Under the pieces are notes generated by a model. That model saw nothing but the letters and a program-made list of their open reading frames with translations, did not search any database and was not told the origin of the DNA. A DNA stretch of 64,000 nucleotides from Paenibacillus tuaregi (GTDB lineage: Bacteria > Bacillota > Bacilli > Paenibacillales > Paenibacillaceae): positions 3,321,869 through 3,385,868 of the forward strand of contig NZ_LT575476.1 in NCBI RefSeq assembly GCF_900086655.1, in the 5' to 3' direction. The number at the start of each line of letters is the position of its first letter. Position 1 is the stretch's first letter. Shown one piece after another: positions 13,249 through 23,720 of the stretch. The translations under genes were made by a program, and so were the position numbers.

Positions 13249-14379
13249 CTACCAAAACCGGTTATCCGCTATAACTTGAAGCAGATTCTCAATATCTTCC
13301 GGATAGACTTCCCCAATGTTTCCGATCCGGAATGTGTCGGCGGCACTGATTTTGCCTGGATAGATCACATAGCCTGCTTGTTTTATTCTTGCATACAGCT
13401 CTTCAAAACTAAAGTGTTCAGATTGCGGGAATTGAAACGCTGTGATAAAAGGGGATTGAACCTCTGGTTGAAGCAGCGCTTCTACCCCAAGCCTACTCAT
13501 TCCGCTTACGAGAAGCTGCTGATTATTCTTATAACGGGCATAACGGGCTTCTACCCCGCCCTCTTCGGCAAGCTCCTTAAGCGCCTGATCAAAGGCCCGG
13601 ACAACATGCGTCGGTGAGGTGTAACGCCATTTGCCCCCGCCCTTCTCCATCGTCTCCCATTGGGAGTACAAATCCAGCGACACGGTTCGGGCCTGGCCCT
13701 TGCACATCTGCAAAGAGTTCGTTCTTGCCAAAATAAATCCGAATCCAGGCACACCCTGGATGCACTTATTTGCACTGCTGATCAGGTAATCGATATGCAG
13801 TTCCTGAATGTTAAGCGGAATTCCGCCGAAGCTGCTCATCGCGTCGACCATGATGGTTTTGCCATAACGCTTGGCTATGGAGGTAATCTCATGAATTGGA
13901 TTCAGCATCCCTGTGGTTGTCTCACAGTGGACAAATATAACGTGGGTGATATTCTTGTCCTCAGCCAGAATCCGGTCTACAGCCTCGGAAGAGACAGGAA
14001 CAACTTCCCCAAAGTCCAACACGGTGGCCTCAATATTGTACAGACGTGTGATTTCTGCAATCCGGTTGCCATAAGCGCCATTGGTCAGGATCAAAAGCTT
14101 GCCTTCAGATGGCATGACCGTGCTGATTACCGCTTCCACACTGAACGTTCCGCTCCCCTGCATCAGGACCGCGGTATATTCATCCGTGCTGGCGCCAGCT
14201 AATTCAACAAGCCGAGACCGGATACTCTGCACCAGTTCATTATAGTCCTTATCCCAAGTACACCAATCCCGCAGCATAGCTTCCTTTACCGTCTTCGAGG
14301 TGGATAATGGTCCTGGAGTAAGCAGCAGATACGGATTATCTCCAAGAGCAGTCTGATTCGTTGATGATGCCGTAGTCAT
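13249..14379 (-). CDS. phnW: 2-aminoethylphosphonate:pyruvate transaminase
   Basis: This 376-residue class-V aminotransferase begins NPYLLLTPGPLSTS, as PhnW proteins do. It has the PLP lysine in SSANKCIQGVPGFGF (about residue 203) and the DAMSSFGG segment with the cofactor-binding Asp. PhnW transfers the amino group of 2-aminoethylphosphonate to pyruvate, giving phosphonoacetaldehyde and alanine. The start overlaps the end of phnX by four bases, and its place in an operon with a matching importer makes the assignment secure. It is last in the operon; no clear terminator follows. Confidence 0.95.
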   Translation of the reverse strand: MTTASSTNQTALGDNPYLLLTPGPLSTSKTVKEAMLRDWCTWDKDYNELVQSIRSRLVELAGASTDEYTAVLMQGSGTFSVEAVISTVMPSEGKLLILTNGAYGNRIAEITRLYNIEATVLDFGEVVPVSSEAVDRILAEDKNITHVIFVHCETTTGMLNPIHEITSIAKRYGKTIMVDAMSSFGGIPLNIQELHIDYLISSANKCIQGVPGFGFILARTNSLQMCKGQARTVSLDLYSQWETMEKGGGKWRYTSPTHVVRAFDQALKELAEEGGVEARYARYKNNQQLLVSGMSRLGVEALLQPEVQSPFITAFQFPQSEHFSFEELYARIKQAGYVIYPGKISAADTFRIGNIGEVYPEDIENLLQVIADNRFW

Positions 14380-15182
14380 GGGCGATCCCTCCTTGCCAGC
14401 CTCTCATTAATTTCATCCACAATACGGTCAAGATCCCCAATCTGTTCGATGACGTAGTGGGCACCGGCTTCAAGCAGCCTTGCTGCCACAGCAGCCTTCC
14501 TGGCCTCCAGCTCAAGCTGGTCACATGCCTGTACTTCCTGCTCGGTCATCCCGAGTTCGTTGCTGCCCAGAATCACGCCTACGGTCCAGCAGCCCGCATT
14601 TACACCTTCCTGCATATCACTGACTGTATCCCCGGCCTTGACGATCTCGTACATGGGATACACATTCAGCGCTTCCGCATTTCTGTAGATCATCCAAGGG
14701 TAAGGTCTGCCTTGAGGTACTTCACTCGGTGTAACCAAGTAGTCTGGTCTATAGCCTGTGGCAGCGGCTTCACGGGATACGATATCCATCATAGCCCGGG
14801 TGTAGCCGGTCGTGGAGCCGATCTGAATGCCGCGCTCCCGAAGGCGTGCTGTAAGCTCAACTGCTCCTGGCACAGGCTGTGCATACTGCTCCAATGTGCT
14901 GAACAGAAGCGGCTCAAATTCTGCGTACAGCTTGTCGATATCCTGCTCATTCGGTGTGCGTCCATACTTGATCTCCCACAATGCCGAGATGCGCTCCATT
15001 TGGCACATCGCCGCAATATGATCCCTCTTCAGAAGCCCCATCGGCTTACGGGCCTCTTCAGCTGTGACTTCAATCCCTGCTTGGGCGAACACCTCAACGA
15101 ACACATGAAGCGGAGCGAAACAGCCGTAATCCACCATGGTTCCCGCCCAGTCGAGCATAACTGCTTTAATCATTCCTCTCAC
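14376..15182 (-). CDS. phnX: Phosphonoacetaldehyde hydrolase (phosphonatase)
   Basis: A HAD-superfamily enzyme of 268 residues. The nucleophile loop MLDWAGTMVDYG holds the catalytic Asp (about residue 11); the GLLKRDHIAAM segment contains the lysine that forms a Schiff base with substrate in this family; VKAGDTVSDMQEG supplies the acidic motif. It cleaves phosphonoacetaldehyde to acetaldehyde and phosphate, following PhnW. The annotated start is GTG at 15182, immediately after the permease stop; ATG at 15173 is an alternative three codons later. It overlaps phnW by four bases. Confidence 0.95.
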   Translation of the reverse strand: MRGMIKAVMLDWAGTMVDYGCFAPLHVFVEVFAQAGIEVTAEEARKPMGLLKRDHIAAMCQMERISALWEIKYGRTPNEQDIDKLYAEFEPLLFSTLEQYAQPVPGAVELTARLRERGIQIGSTTGYTRAMMDIVSREAAATGYRPDYLVTPSEVPQGRPYPWMIYRNAEALNVYPMYEIVKAGDTVSDMQEGVNAGCWTVGVILGSNELGMTEQEVQACDQLELEARKAAVAARLLEAGAHYVIEQIGDLDRIVDEINERLARRDRP

Positions 15183-16904
15183 CTAACCTTCCCTATTTTG
15201 CCAGGCTGCCGATTTCTTGCGAACCCCTCGTGTGGCGAGCTCGTAGATCATCCGCACCCCGATATTCGTGATGACAATCAGCATCGACATGGCGGCCGCC
15301 GGGGCAACATCGCCCGCGTCATCCATATTCACGATCGATACAGATGCCAGCTTCAAGTCCGCCGCATACAGAAACATCACGGCAGAGACCGTAACCATAG
15401 AGTTGATGAAATAATACATTGTCATTTCCAGAATTGCCGGTAAACAAATCGGAACCGTAATCCGGGCAAATGTTTTGTAGAACGGGACGCCCATAGATTC
15501 TGAAGCCATCTCAAACTCCCGGTCCAGCTTCTTCAGCGCCGTGGTGGCTGTAATGAACGAAACGGAATAGAAATGGGCCATATTCGCCAGCACCAGAATC
15601 CAGATTGTACCGTAAATGGCGTGAAGCGGATTATCCCTATTGTTAAAAAAGAAAATATACCCTAGACCAATCACCATGCCCGGCAGCGCAAGCGGCAGGA
15701 TCGACAAAAAATATCCGGCTTGACGCAGCAGCCTGAAATGTCTTGTTTTCTCAATGAGATAAGCTCCCATAAAAGTGCCTGCTGTTCCAATCACCGCGGT
15801 CCAGGCAGCCACTTTCAAACTGGTCCAGAAAGGCTTCATACCTTCTCCCGCCACCTTGCTGAAATCGAAATGATCCAGCGTGAACGTAAGATTGTATGGC
15901 CAGGTCTTGATAAAAGCGGCGGCAAATACCGTTGCGGTCAGCACTAGAATGGCCCCTGAAATAATCAGGCAATAAGTGAACAGAAGGGTGTCACGCAGCC
16001 GGTTCCTTCCTGTCCGGTAAGGAGCGGATTTCGCTGTAATAGCCGAGTTCATTTTCCCTTCCAGAATCCGGTCCACAATAAACGCCAAGATTGCAGGGAT
16101 GATCAAAATAATTCCCACAGTGGCTCCCATGCCCATATTCTGCTGGCCGATCACCTGCTTATAGATATCGGTAGCCAGGACATTGTACTGTCCCCCTACG
16201 ACTTTGGGTGCTCCAAAATCGGTAAATGACAACGTAAAGCACACAAACAGGGATGAGATCAGACCGTATTTGATATTGGGCACAGTTACAGTCAGAAATT
16301 TACGGAGCTTCCCCGCGCCCATGGTCTCGGCGGCTTCATACAGGTTGTAATCCGCAAAGGACAATGCCACCAACAGAATTAAATAAGCTTGGGGGAAGGT
16401 ATAGATGACCTCGGAAAGTATAATTCCGACCGGTCCATATAAGTCGATCTTCCATTCCCATGGCAATGCCCCGAAGAACCCCGTTGTGATGATCCCCTGA
16501 TGCCCGAACAGATAAGTTAGTCCGATTCCATGCATCATGGTTGGTGCGAATAAAGGCAGCAGGGCCACGGATTTAAAGAACCGCTTGCCCCGAACGGCCG
16601 TCCGGGTTAAGGTGAACGCGAACCCAAGAGCCAGCGCTACGGAAATCACAGATGAAGCAACGGAAATAAACATCGTGTTCTGGAATGATTGCATGGATGC
16701 TGAGGTTGTAAAATATTTCGCGAAATTCCCCAGTCCAATGTACTGCCCTCCCCTGTCTGTAAAGGCTCTGCTGAACAAAGACATCAGCGGTGCCAGAACG
16801 GCAATCAACAGGCCGGCAATCATAACGAAAATGGCGGTCCGCTGAATGAAACGGTCTCTGCCTGCACCCGTGGTGAATAGATGTGCCCCCTGTGTGGTCT
16901 TCAT
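15183..16904 (-). CDS. 2-aminoethylphosphonate ABC transporter permease, fused two-domain
   Basis: A 573-residue membrane protein with two consecutive binding-protein-dependent transport domains, about twelve hydrophobic helices in all. EAA-type cytoplasmic loops are visible in each half (YEAAETMGAGKLRKFLTVT near 205-225 and FEMASESMGVPFYKTFARIT near 490-510). This fused form is the PhnU2-type permease of phosphonate importers in which one polypeptide replaces two. Its start overlaps the end of the ATPase gene by four bases, and phnX follows at once, so uptake and breakdown are produced together. Confidence 0.9.
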   Translation of the reverse strand: MKTTQGAHLFTTGAGRDRFIQRTAIFVMIAGLLIAVLAPLMSLFSRAFTDRGGQYIGLGNFAKYFTTSASMQSFQNTMFISVASSVISVALALGFAFTLTRTAVRGKRFFKSVALLPLFAPTMMHGIGLTYLFGHQGIITTGFFGALPWEWKIDLYGPVGIILSEVIYTFPQAYLILLVALSFADYNLYEAAETMGAGKLRKFLTVTVPNIKYGLISSLFVCFTLSFTDFGAPKVVGGQYNVLATDIYKQVIGQQNMGMGATVGIILIIPAILAFIVDRILEGKMNSAITAKSAPYRTGRNRLRDTLLFTYCLIISGAILVLTATVFAAAFIKTWPYNLTFTLDHFDFSKVAGEGMKPFWTSLKVAAWTAVIGTAGTFMGAYLIEKTRHFRLLRQAGYFLSILPLALPGMVIGLGYIFFFNNRDNPLHAIYGTIWILVLANMAHFYSVSFITATTALKKLDREFEMASESMGVPFYKTFARITVPICLPAILEMTMYYFINSMVTVSAVMFLYAADLKLASVSIVNMDDAGDVAPAAAMSMLIVITNIGVRMIYELATRGVRKKSAAWQNREG

Positions 16905-17953
16905 ACGGGAACACTCAGCTTTCCGCTTCGGGGTGTGCCGAACCCGATGATTTGGTTCTCTGGAAATTCCACATATACTTTCAGATTCTTGTGCACGTGC
17001 AGTCTCTTCGCAAAGGAGGCCGGCACATCCACATAAATCGGTTCTTCCCCGCCAAGGTGTGCCGCAAGCCGGATACTCAGCCGGTAAAACGCGCCCCTGA
17101 ACTCGGAGTCGGTTACTACGGCTTCGCGGCTGTATGCGGTTGGCCGGTCACTGATCCGGATATGCTCCGGCCGGATGCCAAGCTCGCTGTCCTTATCATA
17201 TTCGGGATGCTGAAGCCACCCGTTATCCATAAAATTCACAGCACCGATAAAGTCCGCTACAAAACGGGTCTTGGGCTGCTCGTATACTTCCTCCGGCGAA
17301 CCGGTTTGAATGACTTTGGCGTTGTTCATCACGACGATTTTATCTGCCATGGTTAACGCTTCCTCCTGGTCGTGCGTCACCATAATCGTAGTCATGCCAA
17401 GCTGATCATGCAGCCGGCGCACTTCCTTGCGCAGCTTCTGACGGACCTTGGCGTCCAGTGCGGATAACGGTTCATCAAGCAGCAGGAAATCCGGGGACAG
17501 TGCAACCGCCCGGGCCAAAGCTACCCTCTGCTGCTGGCCGCCTGACAGCTGAGCCGGGTATTTGTCCACGGCATGCTCCAAATCAACCATGGCAAGCACC
17601 TCGTGTACTTTTTCGCTGATCTGAGCTCTGGACATTCTCTTCTCCTTGAGACCGTAAGCGATATTCTGGGCGGTAGTCAGATTAGGGAATAAGGCGTAAG
17701 ATTGGAACATCATGCCTGCGTTCCGTTTAGCTGGAGGCAGGGATGTGATATCCCTGCCCGCAACCGTTATACTACCGCCATCCGGCGCTTCCAGTCCTGC
17801 AATGATCCGGAGCAGCGTCGTTTTGCCGCATCCGCTCGGACCTAGAAGACAAACAAATTCATTCTTCTGAATATCGATCCGGATGGGTTCCAGCGCTGTA
17901 AATGTGCCAAATGCCTTATGGATGTCTCGAATTGCCAAATAGGGGTCTGGCAT
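16901..17953 (-). CDS. 2-aminoethylphosphonate ABC transporter ATPase
   Basis: A 350-residue ABC ATPase with Walker A GPSGCGKTTLLR (about 38-49), signature LSGGQQQR, Walker B FLLLDEPLSALD and the H-loop TIMVTHDQEEAL, followed by a C-terminal TOBE-like regulatory part (LGIRPEHIRISD onward). Length and organisation fit PhnT2/PotA-like importers. It overlaps the permease gene by four bases and lies 33 bp behind the binding-protein gene. Confidence 0.92.
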   Translation of the reverse strand: MPDPYLAIRDIHKAFGTFTALEPIRIDIQKNEFVCLLGPSGCGKTTLLRIIAGLEAPDGGSITVAGRDITSLPPAKRNAGMMFQSYALFPNLTTAQNIAYGLKEKRMSRAQISEKVHEVLAMVDLEHAVDKYPAQLSGGQQQRVALARAVALSPDFLLLDEPLSALDAKVRQKLRKEVRRLHDQLGMTTIMVTHDQEEALTMADKIVVMNNAKVIQTGSPEEVYEQPKTRFVADFIGAVNFMDNGWLQHPEYDKDSELGIRPEHIRISDRPTAYSREAVVTDSEFRGAFYRLSIRLAAHLGGEEPIYVDVPASFAKRLHVHKNLKVYVEFPENQIIGFGTPRSGKLSVPV

Positions 17954-17985
17954 GGGCTTTCCTCCTTCATTCAGGTTCGTTATTG

Positions 17986-19086
17986 TTATTGTTTAGGCTC
18001 GCTCTTCGAGTCATAGCGCTTTGTCCACTCGGCAAGCGTGGCGTCACGGTTCTTGGCAGTCTGATTCAGGTCATTCTTGATCAATTGGCTGACAGGATCC
18101 TTGCTGTAACCTTCCGGGATGCCCGCAGCGTCGTCTTTAATGGAAATGATGGCGTAATTCTCGTTATACTTCTTCATCGGCTCGGCAGAAATCGCCCAAT
18201 CGAGGAACTGCTTGGCTTCAGGTTTGATGTCGGCTTTCTTGATCAAAGCGTTCGCTTCCACATCCCAGCCGGAGCCTTCCTTCGGAAATACAACTTCGAC
18301 CGGAGCACCCTTCTTCTTCTCCTGGATAGAACGGTAACCAAATGAAATACCTATTGGGTATTCACCTGTACCGGCCAGCTTCGCCGGCTTCGAGCCCGAA
18401 TGTGTATAGGTTGCGATATTCTCATTCAACTTGTCCATGTACTTCCAAGCTTCTTCTTCACCCAGCAGCTGCTGCAGACCAGATACCGTCAAGAAACCTG
18501 TTCCGGAAGAAGCCGGGTTCGGCATAACAATAAGACCTTTATATTCCGGCTTAATCAGATCAGCATAAGACTGTGGAATGGCCAGTCCTTTCTTCTTAAG
18601 CTCCACCGTATTTACCGCAAAGGCAGTCTCCCAGGCATCAATTCCAACCCAGTGAGTTGGGTTCTGCGAATCCTTGAATTCCGGTGTAACTTTCTCAACG
18701 CCTGCTGGTGAATAAGGCTCCAGCATTCCGTTCTGGTCAAGCACCAGCAGACTTGTAGCGGCTGTTCCCCACACCACATCGGCTACCGGATTATCTTTCT
18801 CTGCAAGCAGCTTGGCTGTAATGACACCTGTGGAATCGCGGACGACATTCACCTTTACATCAGGATAAGTAGACTTATAAGATTCTAGGTAGGACTCAAT
18901 CTGATCATCTTCGAGCGCGGTATACACCGTTATCTCTTTGCTTCCCGAAACCGCCGCCTCTTTCCCGGCACCAGCACTCTGGTCTTTCAGCTGATTCGCT
19001 CCTTCAGATTTCGTTCCTTGACCGCAAGCAGCCAGGAATGACACCAGCATAAGCATAGTTGCTAATAGACCCGTCCATTTTTTCAT
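17986..19086 (-). CDS. 2-aminoethylphosphonate-binding lipoprotein
   Basis: A 366-residue extracellular solute-binding lipoprotein: signal peptide [17 protein letters not shown], lipobox LAAC with acylated Cys21, then a periplasmic-binding fold of the iron/thiamine/phosphonate type starting [18 protein letters not shown]. It resembles PhnS2-type proteins and delivers substrate to the fused permease. It is the first gene of the operon. A TATACT box lies at 19145-19140 on the reverse strand, 53 bp upstream of the start, with no convincing -35 element, so activator control is possible. Confidence 0.9.
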
Positions 19087-19277: not shown

Positions 19278-20930
19278 CTATGGAGTTGGATCCATGGTGC
19301 CTGGAATTGCAGGGCCTGGATCTGTGGTGCCGGGATCCGCGGTGCCTGGATCTGTAGTGCCTGGATCCGTGGTACCCGGATCTGTAGTGCCTGGATCCGT
19401 GGTACCCGGATCTGTGGTGCCTGGATCACCAGTACCCGGAGGAGGTGTCTGGCCAGTCGTTCCTCCTTGGTCGGAGCCTGAATCTTGCCCGCCATCGGAA
19501 TCATTAGTGCTGTCTTGCACAGTGACTACAGATGATGTAATAACCGTGCCTGGCTGATCCGCTGAAGAAGGAACCTTGAGCAAGAAGAAGGAATATCCGG
19601 TAAGCGGCTTGCCTCCGTTAAATCCTTCAATCATGTATTTAATGTATGAAGAAGAGATGCTGCCACCATTTACATTTCCTGCATCAGCTGTGGCTGGTTG
19701 AAGATTTAACAGACGGTATTGTGCTCCAGCCGGTTCTTTGTAGAAAATGAAATACCGGTCGTTCACATCCCCTGGCATCCACTCTAGAGTAGCCCCGCCG
19801 TCATTATAATATCTAAACTCGGCTATTTCCGGCTTGAATTGAACGGAAGCTTCATTGGAATACTTCGTTCCCTCTCCGCTTGGTTTCACCACAAAATAAG
19901 CGGTACCTTGGAAATACTTATTGGTGAGTGGGAATGAACCAGATTCTGTCTGACCTATCTTTTGGTATTCTAACCCAGACACACTGGAATAGTAGACATC
20001 ATAAGTAACACTCGGCTTAGCCGTCCAGGTCAACTCTGGCAGAGTCAGTCCCGGCAAGTCTGCATTTACAGAATAATGCAGCGCCAGATCGGAAGGAGCT
20101 TGTGGAATTTCCGGAGTTGCCACGGGCGGCTGTTCAGGAGTCGGTGTGGTCGGATAATAGACTGGCGGCACATAAGATGTGCTCGGCTGCTCAGACTTTT
20201 TCGCCTCCTCCGCCTTTTTGGCTTCTTCAGCTTTTTTCGCTTCTTCCGCTTTCTTTGCCTCTTCAGCTTTCGCTGCCTCCTGCTTTTGCACCGTATCAGA
20301 AGTGCTGAGCCATCTTTGAGTCAAGCTTGCAACCTGCTCGCGGGTTGCCGCCCCCGTGGGATTAAACTGGCCGTTGCTGCCATTAAGATAACCCAGCTTA
20401 AACGCTGCGCCTACCGCATCCTTGGCGTAATCGGAAATAGAAGCTGCATCTGAGAAATTCAAATAGGCTGCTCCCCCGGTCACCACGTCTTTACCTACAA
20501 TCAGGTTCAGTGCTCTGGCGAACAGGACGGCCATATCCTGGCGGGACAGATTGGTTCCGCCTCCGAATGACCCATCGCCTGTTCCTTTAATCAGACCGGC
20601 TTTGACTGCGGCTTCAACCGCTGCGTAGGCATAATGATCCTTGGGAACATCCTTGAAGCTTGGCGAAGCAGGCGGTTGGCTGGTATCCAGCTTCAATGCC
20701 TTGGCGAGAATGATAGCGAAATCCTGTCTCTCGATCTTTCCGGCAGGATTGAAGCTGCCTGTGTTCACCCCATTCAGTATTCCCTTGGAAGCCAATTCCA
20801 AAATGGCATCCTTGGCAAATGAGCCCTGAATATCGGTGAAATCTACTGCAGCATGTGTGCTTAGTGGTGCTCCAAGGTAAATCACGCCGGAAGCCACTGA
20901 TACGGCAAGTGCCCGCTTTAATCTTTTCAT
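19278..20930 (-). CDS. SLH-domain surface protein with Pro/Thr/Asp-rich tail
   Basis: The 550-residue protein has an Ala-rich signal peptide (cleavage near THAA-VD, about residue 28), three SLH domains at about 30-80 (VDFTDIQGSFAKDAI), 93-145 (PSFKDVPKDHYAYAAVEAA) and 158-210 (LNFSDAASISDYAKDAV), a lysine/glutamate helix of repeated EEAKKA units (about 218-245), a proline-rich linker, fibronectin-like sequence (ALHYSVNADLPGLTLPELTW onward) and a C-terminal tail of DPGTT units. SLH domains bind pyruvylated secondary wall polymer, so the protein sits on the cell surface with its tail projecting. No enzymatic domain is recognised. Confidence 0.9.
   Translation of the reverse strand: MKRLKRALAVSVASGVIYLGAPLSTHAAVDFTDIQGSFAKDAILELASKGILNGVNTGSFNPAGKIERQDFAIILAKALKLDTSQPPASPSFKDVPKDHYAYAAVEAAVKAGLIKGTGDGSFGGGTNLSRQDMAVLFARALNLIVGKDVVTGGAAYLNFSDAASISDYAKDAVGAAFKLGYLNGSNGQFNPTGAATREQVASLTQRWLSTSDTVQKQEAAKAEEAKKAEEAKKAEEAKKAEEAKKSEQPSTSYVPPVYYPTTPTPEQPPVATPEIPQAPSDLALHYSVNADLPGLTLPELTWTAKPSVTYDVYYSSVSGLEYQKIGQTESGSFPLTNKYFQGTAYFVVKPSGEGTKYSNEASVQFKPEIAEFRYYNDGGATLEWMPGDVNDRYFIFYKEPAGAQYRLLNLQPATADAGNVNGGSISSSYIKYMIEGFNGGKPLTGYSFFLLKVPSSADQPGTVITSSVVTVQDSTNDSDGGQDSGSDQGGTTGQTPPPGTGDPGTTDPGTTDPGTTDPGTTDPGTTDPGTADPGTTDPGPAIPGTMDPTP
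19287..19427 (-). repeat. Fifteen-base coding repeat encoding DPGTT units
   Basis: About nine tandem copies of a 15-base unit encode Asp-Pro-Gly-Thr-Thr and close variants (DPGTA, DPGPA, IPGTM) at the C-terminus of the SLH protein. Such a perfect-period repeat is likely to vary in copy number between strains. Confidence 0.85.
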
Positions 20931-21061
20931 AATGTTCCCCCAATAGATGAAATAAGAAAAATCACAAAGATCGTAGCATAATCAAACAATAATCTGAACA
21001 ACAAGAGACGGAAAAACTTCCAGATAAAGAAAAAAACCACCCGCTCAGGTGGTCATTATTT

Positions 21062-21547
21062 TTAGAATTTGCCCATTATTATTCCGAAGCAGGCGGCATT
21101 CAGCAGGAAGGTAATCGCTCCGCCGATCAGGATTCCCTGCCCTATTCCAACTCGTTTGCGGTTAAACGCAATGATCGCAGCCGGAATTAAGTATACGATC
21201 TGAGAAATACCGATGACAAAGATCGCTGCGGGAAAGGCAGCATGGAGGAAATGGAGCAGAAACAGAATGGCCAGTCCTTTAAACACCTCGGCCGAATGAT
21301 TCCGCTCCGGTTCATGGGGAGGCGGCGCACCGGGCACTCCATTCCAGGCGCCAGGATAGGATTCATAGCCAGGTGTAGGCTGTTGGTCAAGTCCAAGTCC
21401 CTGTCCATACTCTAATCCATGGCCATTGCCTTGGGAGGACGGGGGCACTGACTTGGATGGCTCCCGGTCACTAGAACCCTCTACAGATTCCGCATTCCTG
21501 TCCGCATCATTTTTCCCTTCAGGCCGTTTGTCGTGCTCATCGCTCAT
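21062..21547 (-). CDS. Small membrane protein coupled to the radical SAM gene
   Basis: A 161-residue protein: the first 90 residues are charged then Gly/Pro/Gln-rich and look disordered, and the remainder has two or three hydrophobic helices (LAILFLLHFLHAAFPAAIFV, GISQIVYLIPAAIIAF, and a Gly-rich C-terminal helix). I recognise no named family; the helical part resembles short two-helix membrane proteins often placed beside lipid or stress genes. Its start overlaps the radical SAM gene by four bases (ATGA), so it is translated from the same message and is probably part of the same membrane process. Confidence 0.8.
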   Translation of the reverse strand: MSDEHDKRPEGKNDADRNAESVEGSSDREPSKSVPPSSQGNGHGLEYGQGLGLDQQPTPGYESYPGAWNGVPGAPPPHEPERNHSAEVFKGLAILFLLHFLHAAFPAAIFVIGISQIVYLIPAAIIAFNRKRVGIGQGILIGGAITFLLNAACFGIIMGKF

Positions 21548-22959
21548 CGGTTGACCCCCTCCATTTCCGCCTTCAGCTCCTTAAGCCGGTTCTCCAACTC
21601 TCCACGATAGAAGATATTATACGTATCAAACGGAATGATTCTACCATCCGGATGTACGATATGAACACACGATTTCTTGACGGAGCGGACATCGAAATGG
21701 TAAGGGTCCATAAACTGCATGATGATCACGCGAAATACATTGTCATAACTGACTGTCTCTGGTACCTGGACAAGTGGAAGGCAGCACAGCAGACTTTTTA
21801 ATGATAATGCCGAGGATTCTGGAGAATGAGCCGTAGAGAACAGTTCAAAGATTTGCTTTTTAAGATCCTGGTCCTGTTCAAACACAATTGTATTGCGTCC
21901 TCCCTCCAGCAGAATCTGCGGATCGATCATTCCGGTGAGCGGTACGGCTTCACCACCCATCTTCAGCGCGTACCCCATCGCAAGTGCATCGGGATGACAT
22001 GGAACTGGAATGATATCTTCAGCCTGAAACACACCGGACTGATCAATAATCTGCTGACGGACTTCACTTAAGGTTAAGCGGTCCTTGGAAGGGTCGAACT
22101 CCTCGAGGCGCCCAGCAGCCTGGATTGGCTGGAAAGTTACGCCCCGAACCGCCCGCTGCTTGAGACCGTACTGGATGATCTCCCCGATTTCATGATCATT
22201 CAGCCCCTTCTTAAGTGTGACTACCAAGGTGGTCGAGATGTTGAATTCATTCAAGTGCTCAATCGCCTTATTCCGAATCTGCCGAAGGTCGGCCCCCCTC
22301 AGCTCCTGAAGCGTGGATTTATCAAAGCTGTCAAACTGCAAATAAATTTCAAACCCTGGTTTATACTCCGCCAGCCGCCGGACAAATTCCCGGTCCTGGG
22401 CAATCCGGATTCCATTGGTGTTAATCATCAGGTGCTTGATTGGTTTCGTCTTGGCCATGTCCAAAATTTCAAAAAACTGTGGATGAATGGTCGGCTCCCC
22501 GCCGCTGATCTGCACAATGTCAGGCTCCCCCTCATTGCGGACGACGGCATCCAGCATTCGTTCGATCTCTTCAAGAGAGCGCCATAATTTCTTCTCCGGG
22601 GACGAATCGGCATAACAGATCGGGCATTTCAAATTACATTGGTCGATAATCTCAACGATTGTCAGACAACTGTGCTGCTCATGATCCGGGCATAGACCGC
22701 AATCATACGGGCATCCGTAGCGGATCGGAGTATTCCAGTGCAGCGGCATTTCCGCTGGCTTGATAAATTCGCGGCAGCGCTTGAAATATTCTACGTCCGT
22801 GGAGATCAGCACCTTTTCCCGGCCGTGTTCGAAGCAGTATTTGGATAAATACACCCGGTCATTTTCAATAATGACTTTGGCCTCCACTTTCTTGAGGCAT
22901 TTAGAGCAGATGCTGTTCGTGAGTTCGTAGAATAGATAAGGTCTGTTTTTTGTGGTCAT
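21544..22959 (-). CDS. Radical SAM protein resembling MJ0619/tetraether synthase (Tes)
   Basis: A 471-residue radical SAM enzyme. The SAM-cluster motif CNLKCPICYA uses Cys108, Cys112 and Cys115, and the GGEP motif (ISGGEPTIHPQF) follows. Upstream are additional cysteines: Cys18 and Cys21 (SICSKC), Cys42, and the block CPYDCGLCPDHEQHSC (83-98). The C-terminus has LLCCLPL and HPDGRIIPFDTYNIFYR. This arrangement matches my recollection of the archaeal MJ0619 family, whose members include the synthase that joins lipid tails through carbon-carbon bonds. It overlaps genes on both sides by four bases, one an Lgt-like membrane protein. I infer action on a membrane lipid, but the substrate in a bacterium is unknown; other radical SAM chemistry is possible. 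Confidence 0.8.
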   Translation of the reverse strand: MTTKNRPYLFYELTNSICSKCLKKVEAKVIIENDRVYLSKYCFEHGREKVLISTDVEYFKRCREFIKPAEMPLHWNTPIRYGCPYDCGLCPDHEQHSCLTIVEIIDQCNLKCPICYADSSPEKKLWRSLEEIERMLDAVVRNEGEPDIVQISGGEPTIHPQFFEILDMAKTKPIKHLMINTNGIRIAQDREFVRRLAEYKPGFEIYLQFDSFDKSTLQELRGADLRQIRNKAIEHLNEFNISTTLVVTLKKGLNDHEIGEIIQYGLKQRAVRGVTFQPIQAAGRLEEFDPSKDRLTLSEVRQQIIDQSGVFQAEDIIPVPCHPDALAMGYALKMGGEAVPLTGMIDPQILLEGGRNTIVFEQDQDLKKQIFELFSTAHSPESSALSLKSLLCCLPLVQVPETVSYDNVFRVIIMQFMDPYHFDVRSVKKSCVHIVHPDGRIIPFDTYNIFYRGELENRLKELKAEMEGVNR

Positions 22960-23720
22960 GACACACTTTCCTTCCTAACCGGCTGAGTATGATAGCCAAA
23001 TATGAAATACAGCATGCCAAGCAGGCACGCAATTTGAATATTGTTCATTCCCAGGTATGGGTGAGGCGTCGGCTTAATAAAATCAACGCAAAACCGGAAC
23101 GCAAGATAACCGAACATAAACGCCTGGTACATGGCACCGTCGGCCAGCGGCCAGCCCCGGGCTGCTCTTCTTCGTTTGATCACAAACAAGACGATCCCGA
23201 ACACCAGGAAAAAGCCGATCTCGTAAAGCTGTGTAGGATGTCTTGGAATCCCGTCGCCATAGTCGAAGCCCGTGATCCAATTCGTAGGAATACCGTGGGT
23301 ATGGTCATCCAGCCCGGTTAAAAAACACCCGATGCGGCCGATTCCAATCGCAAAAAGCAAGGGAAATACGAAATCGTCCCCTGTAGAGCGCGTAATGCCA
23401 ACCATTTTCTTGGCCAGCTCTACTCCGATCAAGCCGCCCAGAAGCCCGCCAACAATCGTTTTACCGGCCATGAGTTCCGTCCAGTGGCTTCCAATAGACT
23501 TTAACAGCTCTGGATTCTCAAACCAAAACAGCAGCTTGGAGCCAAGAGCAGCTCCTATCGCGGCACCAACAATCACCCAAAACATATTTTTGACCGGAAC
23601 CTCCGTCTTGCGCCGGGTCCATAGGTAAACTCTGAATCCCAAGAAATAGGCAAGTGTCTCAAACAAAAAATGAGGGTGAATCACTAACTTTCCAATATGA
23701 ATGTATACGGGAAACTGCAT
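22956..23720 (-). CDS. Lgt-like membrane protein lacking the usual active-site His
   Basis: A 254-residue polytopic protein homologous to prolipoprotein diacylglyceryl transferase. It keeps the signature region as GIGRIGCFLTGLDDHTHG, the HPTQLYE motif and the terminal YLAFRFCVDF arginine, and has about seven hydrophobic helices. In ordinary Lgt the signature reads GR-x-GN and an essential His stands before GG in the sequence SFHGG; here Asn is Cys and the equivalent stretch is KTIVGGLLGG, with Val at the His position. It is therefore probably a paralogue with a changed acceptor or donor rather than the housekeeping Lgt. It is first in the three-gene coupled operon with the Tes-like radical SAM enzyme. 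Confidence 0.82.
   Translation of the reverse strand: MQFPVYIHIGKLVIHPHFLFETLAYFLGFRVYLWTRRKTEVPVKNMFWVIVGAAIGAALGSKLLFWFENPELLKSIGSHWTELMAGKTIVGGLLGGLIGVELAKKMVGITRSTGDDFVFPLLFAIGIGRIGCFLTGLDDHTHGIPTNWITGFDYGDGIPRHPTQLYEIGFFLVFGIVLFVIKRRRAARGWPLADGAMYQAFMFGYLAFRFCVDFIKPTPHPYLGMNNIQIACLLGMLYFIFGYHTQPVRKESVS

Follow-up and report, generated by a model that had tools for sequence, protein, structure and literature searches.

We analysed a 64,000-nucleotide stretch of the Paenibacillus tuaregi genome (contig NZ_LT575476.1; hereafter the window), focusing on three adjacent genes that encode an Lgt-like membrane protein, a radical S-adenosylmethionine (SAM) enzyme and a small membrane protein. An earlier, sequence-only reading of this DNA had noted that the ends of the three genes overlap by four bases each, and had proposed that the trio modifies membrane lipids or the lipid anchors of lipoproteins, for example by cross-linking acyl chains. 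The coordinates of the open reading frames (ORFs) bear out the overlaps, both junctions being shared by 4 nucleotides (22956-22959 and 21544-21547). The genes and the sites within them are listed from the 5' end of the unit.

22956..23720, minus strand: gene 1, Lgt-like protein with seven transmembrane helices, 254 residues, ATG start (ORF list; Pfam LGT)
21544..22959, minus strand: gene 2, radical SAM enzyme with a predicted Tes fold, 471 residues, ATG start (ORF list; Pfam; fold model; trees)
22615..22638, minus strand: radical SAM cluster motif CX3CX2C of gene 2, C108, C112 and C115 (sequence; present in 79/79 relatives with readable letters)
21625..21672, minus strand: S430-D445 of gene 2, where Ser and Asp replace two C-terminal cysteines of Tes (alignment)
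21062..21547, minus strand: gene 3, small membrane protein, 161 residues, ATG start (ORF list; hydropathy)
21089..21091, minus strand: codon of C153, the conserved tail cysteine of the small protein (sequence; Cys in 61/61 neighbours chosen by place and hydropathy)

Pfam models recognized the first two genes above their cut-offs (LGT, 87.9 bits against 24.9, for gene 1; Radical_SAM, 92.2 against 29.5, and Zn_ribbon_HMPTM, 60.9 against 27, for gene 2), and no Pfam family scored above its cut-off for the small protein of the window.

Co-inheritance of the trio

The radical SAM gene was present in 23 of 148 Paenibacillaceae genomes, the window's included, and in 1 of the 15 genomes of the window's genus. 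An alignment search of the same 148 genomes with the Lgt-like protein gave strong matches (354-397 bits) in these 23 genomes alone, no other genome exceeding 93 bits, and the Lgt-like gene lay immediately upstream of the radical SAM gene, on the same strand, in 23/23. The two genes have therefore been gained and lost as a pair.

A scan of public genomes supplied further relatives, the best 80 of at least 553; these exclude the window itself and include related, non-independent loci, so that all counts taken from them lean to close kin. The nearest among them by radical SAM protein were those of Paenibacillus woosongensis and P. zeisoli (89% identity). An Lgt-like gene was found near the radical SAM gene in 76 of the 80, at a spacing of -32 to +153 nucleotides in 71 and farther off or downstream in five. 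Two of the four loci without an adjacent Lgt-like gene (L117 and L126) carry one elsewhere in the genome, L126 as a fragment only. The stretches available for the other two (L124 and L140) reach only 81 and 48 nucleotides ahead of the match, and a search of the two genomes gave a 69-bit Lgt-like match in the first and none in the second. Surveyed for conserved adjacency, as the sequence-only reading had proposed, the genes are thus co-inherited (23/23 Paenibacillaceae and 76/80 relatives), which rules out chance adjacency.

By record title, the 80 relatives comprise 48 Bacillota, 19 Cyanobacteria, 3 Melainabacteria-type, 4 Planctomycetota, 2 Acidobacteriota, 2 Verrucomicrobiota, 1 Bacteroidota and 1 Actinomycetota, that is, seven or eight phyla depending on whether Melainabacteria are counted apart, several relatives being metagenome bins with possibly wrong taxon labels. 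The first description of the trio as a Firmicute system was accordingly too narrow, as relatives also occur in Cyanobacteria, Planctomycetota, Acidobacteriota, Actinomycetota and others. Elsewhere the distribution is sparse: close relatives (>70% identity) were found in 2 of 398 genomes in a survey of Bacillota, the window's own among them, and 9 of 244 Cyanobacteriota genomes gave a match, in G600 a distant one only. In seven of the eight cyanobacterial genomes whose match is close, an Lgt-like match (a fragment in one case) adjoins the gene. Beyond the trio, the commonest conserved neighbour family was present at only 14 of the 80 loci, all in Bacilli, so the trio seems to form a stand-alone unit without a wider conserved neighbourhood.

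The radical SAM enzyme: fold, family and cluster sites

The closest solved structure to the radical SAM enzyme is that of MjTes (7tol; E 5e-70), which matches in two stretches, with homology at both ends of the enzyme. An AlphaFold2 model (predicted local distance difference test score, pLDDT, of 79, weak at residues 350-399) aligned with 7tom at Z 42.9 (root-mean-square deviation 2.7, 411 residues aligned, 32% identity), whereas the next family, MoaA, reached Z 19.3 and SuiB Z 18.5. All fold matches in the list obtained were radical SAM proteins, a list that is not proof of the absence of others. On this model the enzyme has the archaeal Tes fold, and the relationship to Tes/MJ0619 suggested in the earlier reading holds (E 5e-70; Z 42.9 over 411 residues).

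Homology and a shared fold do not make the enzyme a Tes. NCBIfam scored it at 295.4 bits against the Tes model (NF045702, cut-off 450) and at 330 bits against TrsS (NF045646, cut-off 490), its best match, so that neither cut-off was reached, and three relatives in other phyla behaved in the same way. A 65-row tree, which drew long-branch warnings for several distant rows including L033 and the subfamily, grouped the 33 subfamily rows together (100/100), separate from both MjTes and the TrsS side. In this family tree with Tes/MJ0619, an analysis the sequence-only reading had called for, the enzyme therefore stands in a clade of its own beside Tes and TrsS. We rejected a peptide-maturase identity on the scores, the best such model, WgkB, giving 45.4 of 650 bits as against 330 for TrsS and 295 for Tes, and SuiB aligning at Z 18.5 as against 42.9. 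TrsS, a radical SAM (seleno)protein, is likewise distinct, since three relatives pass its cut-off of 490 with 534-707 bits, it forms a separate clade, and 24 loci of that clade with short flanks show no Lgt-like match, unlike the trio.

The sequence-only reading had described an MJ0619-type cysteine layout. Every cysteine on its list (C18, C21, C42, C83, C87, C90, C98, C108, C112 and C115) is confirmed; the list did not extend to the C-terminal half, which departs from the MJ0619 layout. The rubredoxin-type site (C-X2-C-X20-C-X2-H), the N-terminal cluster site of three cysteines and a histidine (C-X3-C-X2-C) and the radical SAM motif (CX3CX2C), as these sites are defined in Tes (PMC9433317), are kept in all 79 readable relatives. 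Tes also has a C-terminal [Fe4S4] cluster, for which a labile methionine ligand is named and which is implicated in carbon-carbon coupling and in holding the carbon intermediate (PMC9433317). Of the positions that are cysteines in MjTes, 430 is S in 76, T in 2 and A in 2 of the 80 relatives, and 445 is D in 80/80; a third site, position 325, is C in 67, S in 11 and A in 2, and Ala in the window. From the alignment, the replaced cysteines would be the cluster ligands of Tes. At the position of the labile methionine (414), 57 relatives have M, 19 have V and 4 have I, and C321, C392, C393 and C431, which with the two partner proteins further set the trio enzyme apart from Tes (GDGT-MAS, MJ0619; 7TOL, 7TOM), are invariant in 80/80.

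The C-terminal positions are cysteines in 27 of 28 more distant Bacillota relatives. L033 has the same altered pattern as the window subfamily, and the actinobacterial Lgt-paired enzymes are without the N-terminal cluster ligands. Because the Lgt-paired L032 and actinobacterial enzymes retain the Tes C-terminal cysteines, the change reads as a trait of this branch and not of Lgt pairing itself, which leaves Tes-like chemistry possible for the relatives.

The cross-linking of acyl chains offered as an example in the earlier reading is weakened by this pattern: with two Tes cysteines replaced in 80/80 relatives, and the third in 13/80 and in the window, Tes-type tail coupling by the window enzyme appears doubtful. 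Tes itself binds two lipids and abstracts hydrogen from the ends of their tails (PMC9433317), and coupling of this kind has been proposed for bacterial Tes homologues (PMC8941075). An enzyme that joined the tails of two lipids in the manner of Tes or Mss, into diabolic-type or membrane-spanning products, with its partners presenting or accepting the lipids, would be in keeping with the Tes fold across 411 residues, with the retention of the rubredoxin-type, N-terminal-cluster and radical SAM motifs, and with the C-terminal cysteines kept in L032 and the Actinomycetota enzymes. We consider it distinctly unlikely in view of the S/T/A and D residues at positions 430 and 445, the S or A at the third site, and the Tes and TrsS cut-offs that were not reached. 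In addition, 19 of the 80 carriers are oxygenic cyanobacteria by record title, organisms in which we know of no diabolic-type or membrane-spanning lipids.

Mss, which occurs in Bacillota and has Ger as its named partner, reportedly has the same catalytic architecture as Tes, and a word search of the main text of that report for Lgt found nothing (PMC13274423). Homologues of Mss were defined there by E up to 1e-30 and identity >30% to the T. ethanolicus enzyme, and a survey of Bacillota with a loose cut-off placed homologues of Mss and Ger in five Paenibacillaceae species (PMC13274423). We tried Mss as an identity for our Bacillota matches at 33-40% identity and dropped it, as three of the four examined scored as TrsS (534-707 bits) and L056 fell below that cut-off (394.7).

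With respect to the history of the pairing, a 32-row tree placed all 16 Lgt-paired enzymes, among them those of Persicobacter, Mycobacterium, Nonomuraea and two distant Bacillota, on one side of a single branch (91/92). The Lgt-pairing label required 1 change, compared with a shuffled mean of 3.8 (0 of 500 shuffles were as low), and did so in 92% of bootstrap trees. L041, which carries no Lgt label, fell inside this clade; its 4.8 kb contig is without an Lgt-like match and has a tail-cysteine protein (see below) just upstream. A single origin of the pairing fits this tree best.

Two other loci with Tes-like enzymes are recorded here for their own sake. L189 (G330:C39:274000-284000) holds two more Tes-like radical SAM paralogues in tandem, with no Lgt-like match; the Lgt-paired copy of L032 lies in the same genome. 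The Tes/TrsS-like radical SAM gene of L034 (G443) has one in-frame TGA in the match and adjoins an apparent SelD and a methyltransferase; it possibly encodes a selenoprotein, within a sister group having methyltransferase neighbours (also L163, L182 and L184).

The Lgt-like protein and the tail cysteine of the small protein

The Lgt-like protein fell below both NCBIfam cut-offs for Lgt (TIGR00544, 38.2 of 118.9 bits; NF000778, 59.4 of 334). Its AlphaFold2 model (pLDDT 90.4) matched E. coli Lgt (5azb) with a Foldseek E of 4e-7 and Z 13.5 (root-mean-square deviation 5.3, 235 residues aligned), with unrelated rows next at Z 6.3. The assignment to the Lgt family made in the sequence-only reading stands for the predicted fold; with three essential residues replaced, the protein is a divergent Lgt paralogue and not an ordinary Lgt. 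One canonical Lgt is encoded elsewhere in the window's genome (246.9 bits, as against 86.5 for the protein of the trio). Paenibacillaceae also hold Lgt paralogues of ~265 residues that score ~60-93 bits, between canonical Lgt and the Lgt-like protein.

The residues essential in E. coli Lgt are Y26, H103, R143, N146, G154 and R239, and roles in the donor pocket are described for R143, Y235 and R239 (PMC4728403, PMC13251419). We placed these positions by motif and alignment. Among readable relatives, R143 was retained in 75/75 and G154, Y235 and R239 each in 76/76, so that the protein resembles Lgt (5AZB) in its seven-helix fold and in these four residues and differs from it by Y26H, H103V and N146C. 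Two of these three changes, Y26H and N146C, are reported in MSMEG_5408, a second Lgt of M. smegmatis, and H103 is replaced in other Lgts too (PMC13251419); in the canonical Lgt of the window's genome this position is Tyr. The residue pattern and the co-inheritance together rule out an ordinary Lgt duplicated beside an unrelated gene.

The small protein has a hydrophilic N-terminal part, a K/R-rich loop, a C-terminal helix predicted to run from inside to outside, and a cysteine near its C-terminus (C153), a conserved feature that is new relative to the earlier reading. Sequence clustering recovered the protein at 52 of the 80 loci. Choosing neighbours by place and hydropathy, with cysteine ignored, gave 63 loci, from which we dropped L126, where a contig end cuts the gene, and L105, where the neighbour is an unrelated protein of five transmembrane helices without such a cysteine. 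A cysteine 5-20 residues from the C-terminus was present in all 61 remaining neighbours (61/62 with L105). Control small ORFs with several transmembrane helices, taken from the same flanks under slightly different length and hydropathy limits, had such a cysteine in 16 of 60 cases, and in 8 of the 41 with a C-terminal helix, an enrichment (Fisher ~1e-19) whose significance is inflated by kinship among loci. Further tail-cysteine proteins were found at L074, L086 and L137 (hydropathy selection in a wider stretch), at 11 loci including L105 as a protein with a single transmembrane helix and a Cys-rich, zinc-ribbon-like N-terminus, encoded immediately 5' of the Lgt-like gene or overlapping it, and at L113 as a multi-helix protein on the opposite strand, for a total of 76/80 loci.

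The stretch 15-36 residues upstream of the cysteine holds 215 K/R as against 15 D/E in 70 multi-helix proteins, the last K/R lying 15-26 residues before the cysteine. Because K/R dominate the stretch before the last helix, the positive-inside rule predicts a protein with its N-terminus inside and its C-terminus outside, and with the cysteine near the outer face. The N-terminal parts vary from zinc ribbons to proline-rich tails, and the sequences are otherwise very divergent; five other multi-helix small proteins gave nothing above a Pfam cut-off, and one of the two zinc-ribbon versions run against Pfam passed zf-B_box.

The tail-cysteine protein goes with the Lgt-like gene. Each of the six more distant Lgt-paired loci inspected encodes one, and another adjoins L041, the carriers being Persicobacter, Mycobacterium avium and M. 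branderi (two each), Nonomuraea, G452 (L188, the extended L033) and L187 (the L041 contig), and at L032 the cysteine of the small protein lies two residues from the C-terminal end. The 24 loci of the TrsS-side clade showed no small multi-helix ORF with a tail cysteine within up to 1.5 kb on each side. Plasmids of M. avium and M. branderi carry a gene of the Lgt family ~1 kb away from one for a Tes-like radical SAM protein.

The mycobacterial plasmid loci L183 (3201-6521) and L185 (3331-6524) each hold an Lgt-like gene, two tail-cysteine proteins and a Tes-like radical SAM gene. In an actinobacterial-type branch, L187 (2122-2461) and L186 (6266-6790) encode a further small membrane protein, with the motif RS-x-CFLR, 3' of the radical SAM gene.

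A small protein that tracks the gene pair, with a cysteine as its most constant residue, would also suit a substrate resembling those of ribosomally synthesized and post-translationally modified peptides (RiPPs), matured by the radical enzyme and lipidated by the Lgt-like protein into a membrane lipopeptide. RiPPs that receive a lipid from the housekeeping lipoprotein pathway are known, and the diacylglycerol RiPPs of DybA/DybH are like the trio in tying a modified peptide to the diacylglyceryl pathway, whereas they differ in having an N-terminal lipobox, the housekeeping Lgt, and a multinuclear non-heme iron-dependent oxidative enzyme rather than a radical SAM enzyme (PMC12636315). Peptide maturation is quite unlikely in our judgement, since the nearest solved relative of the enzyme is by far a lipid enzyme, with MoaA and the peptide maturases far behind, and since the variable N-terminal parts are unlike a single leader peptide.

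A tentative lipid-modifying mechanism

The conserved trio probably carries out a lipid chemistry not yet described. The general proposal of a lipid-modifying trio thus finds partial support, in homology, folds and co-inheritance, which does not extend to Tes-type cross-linking as originally stated. Neither of the two findings named at the outset as refuting it, a clear place for the radical SAM protein in another family or genes that are not co-inherited, was obtained. Our tentative preference, which we hold to be short of probable, is a three-part membrane system for phosphatidylglycerol-type lipids in which the Lgt-like protein transfers a phosphatidylglycerol-derived lipid to the tail cysteine and the radical enzyme modifies the tails of lipids. 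Lgt itself takes the diacylglyceryl group of phosphatidylglycerol and attaches it to the thiol of a cysteine on the outer side of the membrane (PMC4728403, PMC13251419). The Lgt-like protein, with its donor-pocket arginines and tyrosine kept, probably binds phosphatidylglycerol, and the tail cysteine, near the outer end of the last helix, would lie where Lgt normally meets its thiol. The small protein would be the acceptor, on whose tail cysteine the Lgt-like protein would load a diacylglyceryl or related group, and the product would be a protein-tethered lipid, not an N-terminal lipoprotein. The radical SAM enzyme, with its modelled Tes fold and presumed lipid tunnel, would abstract hydrogen from an acyl chain of a free or tethered lipid and modify that chain; because the carbon-storing cluster site of Tes is changed, modification of a single chain seems likelier in this subfamily than tail-to-tail coupling. 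What the data show is the co-inheritance, the folds (as models), the residue patterns and the tail cysteine; the lipid substrate, the lipidation of the cysteine, the order of the steps and the product are what we infer here.

Several observations weigh against this mechanism. Three of the six essential Lgt residues are replaced, namely Y26 by H (72/73), H103 by V (73/74) and N146 by C (75/75), and because of this the transferase activity of the Lgt-like protein may be lost. The context of the tail cysteine is mostly L-L-N-A/G-A/G-C, which is no standard lipobox. The -3 residue of a lipobox is usually L. The predicted topology would put the cysteine across the membrane from the cytosolic radical enzyme. 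As to the cysteine count, including the dropped five-helix neighbour of L105 lowers it to 61/62, Cys counts as hydrophobic on the scale by which neighbours and controls were selected, and the 12 single-helix or displaced versions were found with the cysteine as a search criterion. No tail-cysteine protein was found at L116, L125 or L132, and at L126 the small gene is truncated by the contig end. In cyanobacterial G554 the enzyme occurs without an Lgt-like match or a convincing tail-cysteine ORF within ~8 kb. Finally, 10 of the 16 Lgt-paired rows in the 32-row tree are close kin, and the support for the branch is moderate.

The replaced residues would favour a different arrangement, in which the Lgt-like protein is a lipid-binding scaffold or flippase without transferase activity, the small protein a structural or electron-transfer subunit, and a free phospholipid the substrate of the enzyme. 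C132 of the Lgt-like protein and the tail cysteine could then pair or bind metal. This arrangement is unlikely in our estimation, as R143, G154, Y235 and R239 are invariant where readable, and it is not obvious why a structural subunit should keep one fixed cysteine when its sequence otherwise diverges so widely.

Loading of the tail cysteine, our preferred reading, can be extended to a lipidation route outside lipoprotein export, with an Lgt paralogue that lipidates a cysteine in a C-terminal helix and a Tes-fold enzyme with a re-wired auxiliary cluster that functionalises or couples the tethered tails, in an ancient module spanning at least seven phyla including oxygenic cyanobacteria. We regard this extension as somewhat unlikely.

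Few radical enzymes are known to join the inert carbons of lipid tails (Tes, Gms, Grs and Mss), and the function of many bacterial Tes homologues is described as an open question (PMC8941075, PMC11868695). For a large group of these homologues, the trio supplies two constant partners, a characteristic pattern of residues and, in the tail cysteine, a candidate site of attachment, so that the question can be put to experiment in cultivable bacteria, among them Paenibacillus, Tumebacillus and Nostoc. Enzymes without the Tes C-terminal cluster site may be included when surveys score bacterial Tes homologues as potential producers of tetraethers. We found no description of the Lgt/radical SAM pairing in the titles and abstracts of the literature searched, whose coverage largely excludes subscription journals. 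On diabolic or tetraether lipids, none of the 12 papers listed out of 56 matching ones mentions Paenibacillus.

Directly 3' of the trio, the window holds a further feature, and such terminator-like hairpins number 7 in the region compared with a shuffle mean of 3.0.

21035..21054, minus strand: hairpin resembling a terminator, with a T tail (consensus match only)

Immediately downstream of the trio, the protein encoded at 19278-20930 (minus strand) ends in a run of PGTTDPGTTD repeats at its C-terminus; we take its repeats to resemble S-layer-homology domains. The genes at 13249-19086 (minus strand), for an aminotransferase, a HAD-type hydrolase, a 573-residue permease, an ATPase and a substrate-binding protein, presumably form an operon resembling those for the uptake and use of 2-aminoethylphosphonate (PhnW/PhnX type).

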